This document shows positions 5,610 through 48,566 of a stretch of DNA of 64,000 nucleotides, one piece after another (within the stretch, counting starts at the first letter, position 1; every line of letters begins with the position of its first letter). Position numbers and translations under genes: made by a program. Origin of the DNA: Sinorhizobium mexicanum. Lineage in GTDB: Bacteria > Pseudomonadota > Alphaproteobacteria > Rhizobiales > Rhizobiaceae. The stretch spans positions 645,501-709,500 of the forward strand of contig NZ_CP041238.1 of assembly GCF_013488225.1 (NCBI RefSeq), read 5' to 3'. The notes under the pieces were generated by a model. That model made no database searches. It saw only the letters and a list, made by a program, of their open reading frames with translations, and had not been told where the DNA came from.

Positions 5610-5629
5610 TAGATCACAATTTAGATCAC
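5610..5629 (-). promoter_or_regulatory. Direct repeat TAGATCAC x2 upstream of HxlR gene, candidate operator
   Basis: The octamer TAGATCAC occurs at 5610-5617 and again at 5622-5629, a 12-base period, starting 12 bases before the HxlR start codon. HxlR dimers commonly autoregulate from sites close to their own start, so this is a reasonable operator, but binding is inferred. Confidence 0.4.
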
Positions 5630-5848
5630 GATGATTTTGCGACTGTTACCCAAGATCATGAACGTGAACGATTCGGGCAAGGTGAGATGCGGGATGCCGG
5701 CCGGGCCGCTTGCACCTTTCCACATCGGACTGACCGCTTGCAGTATCGCATCAGTGGAGTTAATCTGCAACTGCTTTCAATTTGGTATCAGAATATCGCC
5801 GGCAAGGCGGCCGAGGTCTGACATCGCGGCGCGATTTGTCGAATAGCC

Positions 5849-12243: not shown

Positions 12244-12294
12244 CTCCTGATCTCCCTTTCGGCGGCGCCTTCAGGCCCGCATATTATTTGATTT

Positions 12295-45510: not shown

Positions 45511-45699
45511 ATGCACGCAGTGTGATTCCGCTGATGTTGCTGCTCTCAACACCATGATCAGAGAACCTGTCTGGTTGCTGTCAAACACTCAAAACAGGGC
45601 ATCCCGCATTGATCCGTTACATGCACGCGTGTTAGGTCACGCTGATCTTAGGCCGAATCGACCCAAAAATCATAAAGGTGATCGATCCTAATAAGCCGA

Positions 45700-45745
45700 G
45701 ACGCGGGATTCGGGCGGAGAACCGCTTGTACTGTTGCTCATCCGG
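45700..45745. repeat. Degenerate rhizobial mosaic palindrome, family A, over M20 gene end
   Basis: CGCGGGATTCGGGCGGAGAACCGC...GTTGCTCATCCGG retains the family core with substitutions. Its right arm includes the stop codon of the M20 peptidase gene at 45738-45740. Confidence 0.6.
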
Positions 45746-46904
45746 CAAGATAGGTCTCGGCGAGTTCGGTCCAGAAGGCGGCGCCGATCGGCAGCAGATC
45801 GTCATTGAAGTTGTAGCCGGGATGATGGAGCGGCTTTTCCTCGCCCGTCGCTTTGGTTCCGAGGAAGAAATAGCTGCCGGGCCGCTCTTTCAGCATGTAG
45901 GCGAAGTCTTCGCTGCCCATGAAAGGGCGCGCAAGATCAATGACCTTGTCGGTGCCGGCGAAGCGGATCGCGAGGTCGCGCACGAAATCGGTCTCGGCCT
46001 TGTGGTTGATTGTCGCGTCGTAACTCCGCTCGTAATCGACGGTGGCACGCATACCGAAGCTTGCCGCCTGCGCTTCCGCGATCATGCGGATGCGGCGCTC
46101 CAGCTCGTCGCGGACGGCGGGGTCGAAGGAGCGAATGCCGACGACGATCTCGGCCCGTTCCGGAATGATGTTGCTTGCGGAGCCGGCGTGAAAGGCGCCG
46201 ACTGTGACGACGGTCGGATCCATGGGGTGGATGTTGCGCGACACGACAGACTGCAGTGCCATGACGATGCTGGCGCCGCAGACGATCGGATCGGCGGCCT
46301 CCTGCGGTTCGGCACCGTGACCGCCGCGGCCATGAATGGTGATCCGCGCCTCGTCCACGGCCGCCATGATCGGGCCTTCGCGCAAGGCGAACTGGCCGAA
46401 GGGGAGGTTCGGTTCGTTGTGAAGCGCGAACACGGCGTCGCACGGAAACCTGTCGAACAGGCCGTCATCGATCATGATTTTCGCGCCGCCGAAATTCTCC
46501 TCGGCCGGCTGGAAGATGAGATGGATCGTGCCGTCGAAATTCCTCCGTTCGGCGAGCGCACGGGCGGCGCCGAGCAGCATCGCCGTGTGGCCGTCGTGCC
46601 CGCAGGCATGCATCAACCCCGGCGTCCTGCTGGCATAGTCGAGCCCGGTTTCCTCGTGGATAGGCAAGGCATCGATGTCGGCGCGGATGCCGATCGAGCG
46701 TGAACCGGTGCCGTTCCTGAGCGTGCCGACGACACCGGTCTTCGCAAGTCCGGTTGTTACCGTGTAGCCAAGTGCATCGAGGTGCCGGGCAATGAAGGCG
46801 GAGGTCCGCGTTTCCTCGAGACCCAATTCCGGGTGCGCATGCAGGTCGCGGCGGATCGAGACCAGCTGCGGCATGGCGTTGTCGAAGGCGGCGGCGAGCT
46901 TCAT
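45738..46904 (-). CDS. M20-family amidohydrolase (hippurate hydrolase/N-acyl amino-acid hydrolase type)
   Basis: The 388-residue metalloenzyme belongs to the M20D amidohydrolases that remove acyl groups from N-acyl amino acids or cleave related amides. Metal ligands are visible in H-A-C-G-H-D-G-H and in Q-P-A-E-E. A dimerisation domain follows with the G-R-G-G-H-G-A motif, and a late M-G-S-E-D-F-A-Y provides another ligand. ATG at 46904 lies one base after the stop of the permease gene upstream. As the last gene of an amino-acid importer operon it probably processes the imported ligand, which suggests an acylated or conjugated amino acid as substrate. Confidence 0.88.
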   Translation of the reverse strand: MKLAAAFDNAMPQLVSIRRDLHAHPELGLEETRTSAFIARHLDALGYTVTTGLAKTGVVGTLRNGTGSRSIGIRADIDALPIHEETGLDYASRTPGLMHACGHDGHTAMLLGAARALAERRNFDGTIHLIFQPAEENFGGAKIMIDDGLFDRFPCDAVFALHNEPNLPFGQFALREGPIMAAVDEARITIHGRGGHGAEPQEAADPIVCGASIVMALQSVVSRNIHPMDPTVVTVGAFHAGSASNIIPERAEIVVGIRSFDPAVRDELERRIRMIAEAQAASFGMRATVDYERSYDATINHKAETDFVRDLAIRFAGTDKVIDLARPFMGSEDFAYMLKERPGSYFFLGTKATGEEKPLHHPGYNFNDDLLPIGAAFWTELAETYLAG

Positions 46905-46905
46905 G

Positions 46906-47844
46906 TCAGGCACCACGGGTCGGTATGCGGTTTTCGAAATAGCGGAAGGCGACCACCAGAATGCCCGTAAGGCACAGGTAGATCAGAGCAAGCAGCAGCA
47001 GCGGTTCGTAGGTGAGATAGGTTTCCTGCCGCACCTTCGAGATGACCGCATAGACATCGACGACGGTGATCGTGGCGACCAGCGGCGTCGACTTGAGCTG
47101 CAACACGGTCTCGCCATTGAGCGTCGGAAGCGCGCGGTGGATCGCACGCGGCAGCCAGATCCGCCGGAACATCGTCCAGCGGCTCATGCCATAGGCCCGC
47201 GCCGCCTCCAACTCGCCGGCTGGCACGCCGGCAAAGGCGCCGCGCATCACTTCGCCCTCGTAGGCGGCAAAGGAAATGGTGAGCGCCGCAACGCCATAAG
47301 GCCAGGCTTCGCGCAGATACGGCCAGAGAAACGAGTGGCGGATTGCCGGAAATTGCGGAAACAGCGAGCCGAGCCCGTAATAAAGCAGCCACAACTGCAG
47401 GAGCAGCGGCGTCCCGCGGATGATCGTGCAGAAGATCTTGGCAAGGCCCTTGAGATACCAGGGCCCGGTGACCTGGACGAGACCCAGCGGCACGGCAAAA
47501 AGGAAGCCAAGGATCGAGGTGCTGAACAGCATCGCGATGCTGACAAGGATGCCCCAGCCGAGCCTCGGCAGGTAGCGCGGCAGCCAGTCCCAGCGCATCA
47601 GGAGGGCGACGGCGACGATCAGTGCGGCGGCGACGAGAATGAGAACGACACGGTGAGGCTTGAGGAAGTTCTCGCCTTTCGGCAGGTCTTCGGGGGTGAA
47701 GGCCAGAGCGGGATGAGGAAAAGTGTGAAGCGGTTTTCCGCCCGCATCCCGCTCCAACTCATTAGAATCGACCACATTTGTGATTTTGGATTGTTTCAAT
47801 CCAAAATCAGCGTGATCGAGAGCGTGGGTCGTTTCGTCGGTCAT
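46906..47844 (-). CDS. Amino-acid ABC transporter permease with repeat-derived N-terminal insert
   Basis: The 312-residue inner-membrane permease of the His/Glu/Gln/Arg/opine group has the C-terminal E-A-A-R-A-Y-G-M-S-R-W-T-M-F-R-R-I-W-L-P coupling loop and P-L-L-L-Q-L-W. Its ATG at 47844 overlaps the stop codon of the first permease (ATGA), so the start is well fixed. The cytoplasmic N-terminal tail of about 60 residues is unusually long; codons about 13-47 are encoded by a family A palindrome (47706-47754) and a second hairpin (47782-47808). The insert keeps the frame and ends before the first helix (about residue 67). Confidence 0.9.
   Translation of the reverse strand: MTDETTHALDHADFGLKQSKITNVVDSNELERDAGGKPLHTFPHPALAFTPEDLPKGENFLKPHRVVLILVAAALIVAVALLMRWDWLPRYLPRLGWGILVSIAMLFSTSILGFLFAVPLGLVQVTGPWYLKGLAKIFCTIIRGTPLLLQLWLLYYGLGSLFPQFPAIRHSFLWPYLREAWPYGVAALTISFAAYEGEVMRGAFAGVPAGELEAARAYGMSRWTMFRRIWLPRAIHRALPTLNGETVLQLKSTPLVATITVVDVYAVISKVRQETYLTYEPLLLLALIYLCLTGILVVAFRYFENRIPTRGA
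47706..47754. repeat. Rhizobial mosaic palindrome, family A, in frame inside permease gene
   Basis: Perfect ten-base arms GAGCGGGATG (47706-47715) and CATCCCGCTC (47745-47754) around AGGAAAAGTGTGAAGCGGTTTTCCGCCCG. The element is otherwise found only between genes in this window. Here it is translated as part of the permease N-terminus without a stop codon or frameshift. Confidence 0.95.
47782..47808. repeat. Companion hairpin of family A element inside permease gene
   Basis: Eleven-base perfect arms GATTTTGGATT and AATCCAAAATC around GTTTC. It resembles the second palindrome seen after the family A copy downstream of podJ (GATCATTTC...GAAATGATC), so the gene appears to contain a two-part composite element. 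Confidence 0.85.
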
Positions 47845-48566
47845 CGCTGCTCCACGAAACCACGCCGGGCATGCCTCTCCAAGGCGCCGATGAAGACGTT
47901 GGAAACGAGCGTCAGCGCAAGATAGAGCGCGCCGGCAGCGCAGAAGAAAAGCAGATAGGCCTTGGTTGCGCCGGCCGCCTGGCGGGTTACCAGCGTCAGC
48001 TCGCTGAAGCCGACGACGGCAAGCAGGGCGGTATCCTTGGTGGCGATCAGCCAGAGATTGGCGAGGCCGGGGATGGCATAGGGCAGCATCGCGGGGAGGG
48101 TGACACGCCGCAGGACCTTTCCGGGCGACATGCCGTAGGCGCGCGCCGCCTCGATCTGCCCGGCGGGCACGGCCTTGATCGCGCCGCGCAACACTTCCGT
48201 CGAATAGGCCCCCTGGACGACGCCAATGACGAAGATACCGGCCATCAGGCCGCTGATGTCGACCGTCCCGAAGCCGACGGCGCCGAGCAGCTGGTTCAAG
48301 AGGTCGGTGCCGGCATAGTAGAGGAGGAGGATGAGGACGAGTTCGGGCACGGCCCGGACGATGGTGGTGTAGCATTCGAGAAGATCGCGCGTGACCGGCC
48401 CGCCATAGAGCTTGCCGAAGGCGCCGCCGACGCCGAGCAGGAGGCCGAGCGCGTAGCCGCCGACCGCGATCTGGATCGAATGGAGAAAGCCTTGCAGCAA
48501 TACGCCGCCCCAGCCGGGCGCCGAAAGCGAGAGCAGGCTCCAGTTGATGATGGAATCCGCGGCCAT
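47841..48566 (-). CDS. Amino-acid ABC transporter permease, first
   Basis: The 241-residue permease has about five membrane helices and the family coupling loop G-Q-I-E-A-A-R-A-Y-G-M-S-P-G-K-V-L-R-R-V-T-L-P. It forms the channel with the second permease. The ATG at 48566 is chosen because the protein begins there like its homologues; in-frame codons further upstream (48590, 48632) would read into the family B repeat. It overlaps the second permease start by four bases. Confidence 0.9.
   Translation of the reverse strand: MAADSIINWSLLSLSAPGWGGVLLQGFLHSIQIAVGGYALGLLLGVGGAFGKLYGGPVTRDLLECYTTIVRAVPELVLILLLYYAGTDLLNQLLGAVGFGTVDISGLMAGIFVIGVVQGAYSTEVLRGAIKAVPAGQIEAARAYGMSPGKVLRRVTLPAMLPYAIPGLANLWLIATKDTALLAVVGFSELTLVTRQAAGATKAYLLFFCAAGALYLALTLVSNVFIGALERHARRGFVEQR

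Follow-up and report, generated by a model that had tools for sequence, protein, structure and literature searches.

Can a rhizobial palindromic repeat lie in frame inside a protein-coding gene, be translated with it, and matter there? The question is raised by a transporter gene in the window, i.e., the whole 64,000-nucleotide stretch of Sinorhizobium mexicanum DNA analyzed here, in which two palindromes fall within the beginning of the coding sequence. The gene product is a permease of a polar amino acid ABC transporter, with a Pfam PF00528 (BPD_transp_1) match over residues 121-307 and a score over the family cut-off of TIGR01726. As originally predicted, its start codon is set by an overlap with the preceding gene, the ATG at 47844-47842 overlapping the upstream stop, and the minus-strand frame is open through both palindromes, translating without a stop. 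The features of the locus are as follows.

47841..48566, minus strand: first permease gene of this transporter, upstream of the host; its stop and the host start overlap as ATGA, and its own start at 48566 is our choice
46906..47844, minus strand: host permease gene; 312 aa including the insert (insert-free same-genus orthologues read: 274 aa)
47842..47844, minus strand: host start codon ATG, fixed by the ATGA overlap with the upstream permease gene
47704..47817, minus strand: inserted mosaic element, 114 bp, 38 codons, residues 10-47, DHADFGLKQSKITNVVDSNELERDAGGKPLHTFPHPAL; absent in 23/23 insert-free same-genus loci read
47706..47754, no strand assigned: palindrome A (family A of the original prediction), 13-nt arms, 92% complementary
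47781..47809, no strand assigned: palindrome B, 13-bp perfect arms, 3-nt loop; its middle fits GGRTTGAAWCAAYCC
47704..47823, no strand assigned: imperfect direct repeats, GCTCTC at 47818-47823 before the insert (coding strand) and GCTCTG at 47704-47709, the insert's last bases

The two palindromes had been correctly located beforehand, but with arms of ten and eleven bases, while both have arms of 13 nt: 47706-47718 and 47742-47754 for palindrome A, 23 nt apart, and 47781-47793 and 47797-47809 for palindrome B, perfect and 3 nt apart. Likewise, the element had been equated with residues 13-47; the end at residue 47 stands, while comparison with insert-free orthologues moves the beginning to residue 10.

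A permease orthologue was found in 32 of 33 same-genus genomes (≥83% identity), G018 having only a more distant relative. The insert was present in seven of these 32 orthologues, which matched over their full length (G000, the genome of the window, G025, G032, G031, G029, G005, and G021), and absent from the other 25, which matched only from residue 35-45 on. We read 30 of the 32 loci base by base, i.e., all seven carriers and 23 insert-free loci; G012 and G020 were scored as insert-free by match alone. The 23 insert-free loci run uninterrupted from the ATG to CTN|GCN (CTC in 21) and encode 274 residues, and the seven carriers have 114 or 111 extra bases at this CTN|GCN site, corresponding to 38 or 37 codons. 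An N-terminal gap matching the element, as the original prediction expected, was therefore observed in 25/32 same-genus orthologues, and the outcome it had named as contrary, that all orthologues carry these residues, proved false, since the same 25 lack them. Within a separate named collection, three of 80 loci carry the insert (Sinorhizobium sp. 6-70, S. terangae USDA4894, and Ensifer sp. BR816), and no insert peptide was seen in the N-termini of the other 77 (the start was perhaps taken too late for L185). No 312-aa form occurred among the 120 homologues listed of 4170, whose lengths were 244-294 aa.

We consider it highly probable that a small non-autonomous mosaic repeat inserted at codons 9/10 of the permease gene and is read as 38 extra tail residues, tolerated there and doing little. 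The element is one of a dispersed family, most same-genus orthologues lack it, it joins the host gene cleanly, and its length is a multiple of three; given the clean junction, this length, and the stop-free frame, the gene is intact. Mechanistically, the repeat would have entered between codons 9 and 10, and the ribosome would read it as 38 extra residues in a disordered tail ahead of helix 1, where such an insert would be tolerated with little effect. Since two of the six element frames lack stops, an insertion at a suitable position and phase would be survivable, gene-breaking insertions would presumably be lost, and the bounding direct repeats could permit the precise loss of the element.

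The coding strand of the element is predicted to fold mainly into two large separate hairpins (-52.6 kcal/mol, z -8.4, with 0/200 shuffles as good). Both hairpins are internal, and no pairing of the element ends with each other was found in the predicted fold. The region 47500-48000 had no match to Rfam families up to E 1, and the tetramers GTAG and CGTC are absent from both strands of all seven permease inserts. Insertion in the permease follows a Leu codon (CTC|GCC), between codons 9 and 10. The GCTCTC/GCTCTG repeats around it are candidate microhomology or a candidate target duplication, and an insert in addA (described below) is likewise bounded by imperfect repeats, GCTCTG and GCTCTA; the 3' GCTCT copy at these inserts may be the element's own end rather than a target duplication.

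With a 131-base query covering the site, we obtained 43 matches in the same genome, i.e., the site itself, one inverted self-match, and at least 41 other places, from the 40 scored among 183 first-look candidates. The best other copy among the matches listed was 86% identical over query positions 16-131 (E 4.3e-32), and the listed copies were 76-86% identical where the match was about full length and up to 98% where it was short. The neighborhood of pckA, which may be the site of a known repeat copy of this kind, contained a disrupted copy 3' of the pckA match in G000 (L331:3158-3271) and none at E 1e-3 in G015, G014, and G009. The earlier statement that all other window copies are intergenic or at gene ends holds for the six other places found (blastn, E ≤5e-4) when genes are judged by codon score, a verdict that sets aside weakly scoring open frames. 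Such frames overlap window copies at 5621-5776 (51 codons), at 45636-46703 (antisense), and by 3 bases at 12289, and we took them as probably non-genic from their codon usage. A nearly full-length copy lies at 45633-45746, between two genes, and covers the last 9 bases of an M20 peptidase gene (45738-46916, minus strand).

To judge copies beyond the window, we used a codon-usage model trained on the window and classified each copy from 240 bases on either side (48 distinct copies in G000 and 28 in G230, a genome of another genus of the same family). This filter flagged no stop-free in-gene copy in G000, including the 47 copies other than that in the permease; for four copies, the sequence on either side gave a coding signal on one and the same strand, with stops or a broken frame. 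Among the 28 copies of G230, a single stop-free in-gene case was flagged, located in addA. Because the permease copy lies too near the gene start, the filter missed it, so that these in-gene counts are lower bounds. Overall, in-gene insertion of the element looks like a rare exception by this sequence criterion.

A peptide search over 297 genomes of the family Rhizobiaceae gave matches at E 1e-4 or better in 13. G230 at first appeared full of in-gene copies: the search listed 25, of which 23 had no stop and many fell in long open frames; the codon test left one of 28. The four copies that we read looked like chance frames of a GC-rich genome, and long open frames alone are poor evidence of a gene in G230. 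The copies in this genome are many and uniform (L082, L094, L102, L109, and L241-L270), with the coding-compatible frame open in 23/25 peptide matches.

The original prediction proposed a search for the same peptide in unrelated proteins. Using residues 8-49 as query against targets of 0.55 to 1.75 times the 312-residue length, at E up to 10, we found ten candidates with eight matches, all in other proteins and in the same frame by design of the query. Stretches of the peptide do occur in eight proteins, two of them with weak E-values, and most of the eight come from metagenome gene calls; seven bear a Pfam domain, and two share DUF934. The peptide is about full length in four (a TPR methyltransferase, a CHAD-domain protein named YgiF, a methylpurine glycosylase, and one domainless protein) and partial, mainly its A half, in the other four: a GNAT protein (18 + 15 residues), a DUF934 protein (26), a DUF934-PAPS reductase fusion (21, E 0.027), and TfuA (19, E 0.23). 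The insert of the methylpurine glycosylase falls within its Pfam match (residues 21-196), and when the protein is compared with a solved glycosylase structure, which we take to be that of the human enzyme, the aligned pieces 23-124 and 166-193 (the latter weak, 7 bits) flank the insert. The metagenome TPR methyltransferase (P0121) contains two separate in-frame copies, which flank its Pfam methyltransferase match.

Two further host genes could be compared with their relatives. The addA gene of G230 is a TIGR02784 AddA (1188 bits, cut-off 861), open to the contig end over 1002 residues without a stop. Its insert is present in one of ten genomes of that genus and absent from all nine congeners, which match on both sides of it and not over query residues 179-214; against AddA of G327, the protein is 86% identical over 978 columns with a single gap of 38 residues. 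The junction, Leu CTG|GCG Ala, resembles the CTC|GCC of the permease. The TfuA match was refound 100% identical in G016, where tfuA holds the A half only, in a loop that differs in length and sequence across the ten loci read (L316-L325), with G026 empty and five genomes matching only on both sides of the A half; from these sequences, the loop variants in relatives are possibly decayed remnants of the element. In-frame insertion accompanied by insert-free orthologues was thus found for the permease, addA, and, for the A half only, tfuA.

Whether the insert is under selection was evaluated from its divergence among carriers. Nonsynonymous/synonymous differences (Nei-Gojobori) between G000 and G025, G032, G029, and G005 were 4/2, 3/0, 5/2, and 11/5 in the insert and 11/44, 15/45, 8/37, and 11/37 in the host, indicating that the peptide is not guarded as the host is, although these counts are small, come from non-independent pairs and ~26 silent sites in the insert, and depend on a hand-placed 3-base gap in the 111-base copies. 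Palindrome A is little changed among the seven permease copies; between G000 and G021, its half of the element has 1 difference in ~14 silent sites vs 104 in 211 in the host. Such a low divergence fits a young arrival or a constraint on DNA, RNA, or peptide, and not an old neutral fossil. It also stands against our preferred explanation, since a single old insertion decaying slowly and neutrally would not yield an A half more conserved than host silent sites across the deep G000-G021 split. Across seven sequences (six distinct permease copies and the addA copy), all 13 pairs of palindrome B are intact; three of them changed on both sides, a count as high in 4/500 shuffles, and the covariation score of 0.183, against a shuffle mean of 0.088, lies above all 500 shuffles and all slid controls, in a test whose structure was drawn from the seven tested sequences and whose shuffles ignore relatedness. 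One of the five covariation measures, further pair types, showed no excess, with 286/500 shuffles as high.

These patterns bear on an alternative reading in which selection keeps the element in service, either as a peptide tail or, more likely, as mRNA hairpins near the start of the second permease that tune expression or stability of the operon. Palindrome B preserving its 13 pairs while its arms change (0/500 shuffles reaching its score), the little-changed A half, and the strong fold all speak for such a role. However, presence is patchy, with five of the 11 members of the main carrier clade lacking the insert, the copying of whole elements can also preserve pairing, the covariation test carries the null measure and the dependencies given above, and the peptide is only loosely kept, so that we regard a selected function as quite improbable.

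The distribution of the insert among carriers raises the related question of how often it arrived. On a gene tree built from 825 bases without the insert, two changes are required to account for its presence, and two are forced by well supported branches; on the tree of the upstream gene, five changes are needed, three of them forced. Six carriers fall in an 11-member clade with five insert-free members and a poorly resolved interior, and the seventh, G021 (BR816), sits far from them in an otherwise insert-free clade. All seven permease copies nevertheless fit one loop pattern, GGRTTGAAWCAAYCC, as GGATTG in five carriers and GGGTTG in G005 and G021. This pattern, which was drawn up with the permease copies in view and allowed no mismatch in the search, has exactly one occurrence per carrier genome in all seven, always in the permease gene, and its reversed control occurs in none of them. 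The other local copies sampled have mostly TCGA-type loops, and the GGATTG loop is usual in G230 (20 of 29 copies read). Over ~115 bases, the window copy is closer to G230 copies (up to 89%) than to the copies listed from its own genome (up to 86%).

Two sources could be set aside. Re-insertion from the local pool is unlikely because the loop pattern occurs once per carrier genome (7/7) and the local copies sampled are mostly of the TCGA type. A recent import of the gene region into G021 was rejected, as, within 300 bp, 27 diagnostic sites have the state of its own clade and one is carrier-like; the nearest own-clade sites lie at -37 and +6, and a tract little larger than the element (-37 to +6) may have been transferred. 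In G005, G029, and G032, the permease copy is the best match by E-value to the G021 permease copy; against a close tie among permease copies, and against setting the local pool aside, another G025 copy matches the G021 permease copy at 86% in overall similarity, whereas the permease copy of G025 does so at 82%. Any of three accounts may hold: a foreign subfamily may have entered the codon repeatedly, one insertion may have spread by a very short tract, or the insertion may be old and often lost. It is conceivable, if rather unlikely, that codon 9/10 serves as a landing and excision site, the subfamily having entered repeatedly, each time with one orientation and frame, and being lost precisely between the GCTCT repeats, i.e., a reversible 38-codon cassette moving between species. 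A shared loop class at one codon in distant lineages poses a concrete question of element movement and loss.

Of these accounts, the last, an old segment lost in most lineages, amounts to a rival explanation. It would explain why G021, far from the other carriers in the gene tree, yet shares their loop class, and exact excision could occur between the bounding direct repeats. On the gene tree, however, no more than two changes are needed, while a single old gain needs many losses (25/32 without the insert), and the silent divergence of the A half is too low for such an age unless constrained. We hold this history to be very improbable, and the segment would in any case still be a mobile repeat.

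In the reading that we favor, translation would begin at ATG1, ahead of the element. The ATGA overlap is present in 30/30 loci read, and the nine residues before the insertion site are near constant, being MTDETTHAL or one of two close forms in 23/23 insert-free loci and 6/7 carriers, with MTDETTRAP in G021. The in-frame starts of G000 are ATG1, then TTG16, GTG24, and TTG30 inside the element, followed by no ATG, GTG, or TTG until ATG83; in the other carriers, candidate starts downstream of the element, the second contrary case named beforehand, are GTG82 (G025), GTG67 (G032 and G031), ATG69 (G005), and ATG68 (G021), and G029 has none. An AlphaFold model of the permease of moderate confidence (mean pLDDT 66.6) has residues 1-50 at pLDDT <50 and its first long helix at 63-82, so that starts at 67 or later would cut into this helix. 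The flexible tail suggested by the model fits the earlier proposal that the insert is tolerated for lying before the first membrane helix. Reading from ATG1 through the element appears to be the simplest account of these sequences, from which we infer that the 38 extra residues are translated in the permease tail. Partial translation, with initiation inside the element at TTG16, GTG24, or TTG30, is highly improbable: TTG16 is present in 7/7 carriers, GTG at 23-24 in 6/7, and TTG at 29-30 in 6/7, but these codons are also simply element sequence, and the overlap in 30/30 loci and near-constant first nine residues are as expected if ATG1 is used.

Given its features, we assign the dispersed element in the permease, as a presumptive label, to the RIME kind; RIME reportedly stands for the Rhizobium-specific intergenic mosaic element described by Osteras in 1995. 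The likeness lies in being rhizobial, a mosaic of palindromes, and many-copied: the element is dispersed, has many Sinorhizobium copies, and contains two palindromic motifs. In the literature as far as accessible, RIMEs are treated as intergenic repeats, while the permease copy lies inside a gene. No report of translated RIME copies was found in the literature searched, most subscription papers being outside its reach, and the accessible text of the work on Rickettsia palindromic elements (RPEs) and REPs (PMC2229807, PMC3733652, PMC10969869) does not mention RIMEs.

In-frame palindromic insertion is nonetheless of a known kind, represented by the Rickettsia elements and intragenic REPs; the RIME-type case is without a report in the literature searched. 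According to the accessible parts of these sources, RPEs are palindromic, measure 105-146 bp, and occur in frame within unrelated protein genes, to which they add a conserved peptide (PMC2229807, PMC10969869, PMC3733652). The rhizobial element resembles them as an in-frame palindromic repeat in unrelated genes with a shared peptide, a likeness of description, RPEs belonging to another lineage (Rickettsia). Nearly half of RPEs lie in genes, per the accessible text of a 2024 review (PMC10969869), vs 1/48 copies of the rhizobial element in G000 (the permease) and 1/28 in G230. GTAG and CGTC REPs are described, in the part of the source available, as mostly outside genes and sometimes inside, with repair genes (UvrD/REP helicase and RecBCD, for example) among their frequent hosts (PMC3733652), which is paralleled by the copy in addA, a repair helicase; such REPs are 20-40-bp palindromes with a GTAG or CGTC tag, whereas the rhizobial element is a tagless 111-114-bp mosaic of two palindromes. 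Similarly, the 107-bp Neisseria element and ERIC/RU-1 are, in the text available, short non-autonomous repeats whose open frame fuses with host frames (PMC2229807). The rhizobial element shares with such MITEs the in-frame fusion of a short non-autonomous repeat with a host gene, but its ends are unpaired and its hairpins separate and internal, unlike MITE terminal inverted repeats.

In-frame palindromic insertions are best known from obligate intracellular Rickettsia, with REPs in genes from several other bacteria in the accessible text (PMC3733652). Here, the hosts of a rhizobial mosaic element include such basic genes as those for an amino acid transporter and a recombination-repair helicase, and close relatives without the insert are available for comparison. 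Since Sinorhizobium is genetically tractable, whether the insert is neutral, regulatory, or useful could be tested by removing it.

Element matches also occur in 168 plasmid records, 162 of them from Sinorhizobium or Ensifer. As candidate in-gene cases these were rejected: seven of 60 rows listed have a gene under the best place, and the three inspected are gene-end overlaps, involving the C-terminus of CcmF, the start of PxpB, and 2 bases of a slipin gene. A peptide search of plasmids returned 22 records, 17 of them annotated, with no gene under the best place in any. One copy in S. meliloti Ak57 (CP090106.1, L271:1501-1615) extends over the final 66 bases of a gene annotated as CcmF/NrfE heme lyase, and one on a Terrarubrum flagellatum plasmid (NZ_CP091854.1, L272:1501-1611) overlaps an annotated pxpB start by 76 bases. 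With the latter plasmid and that of Methylovirgula sp. HY1 (NZ_CP073765.1), the element family extends past Rhizobiaceae.
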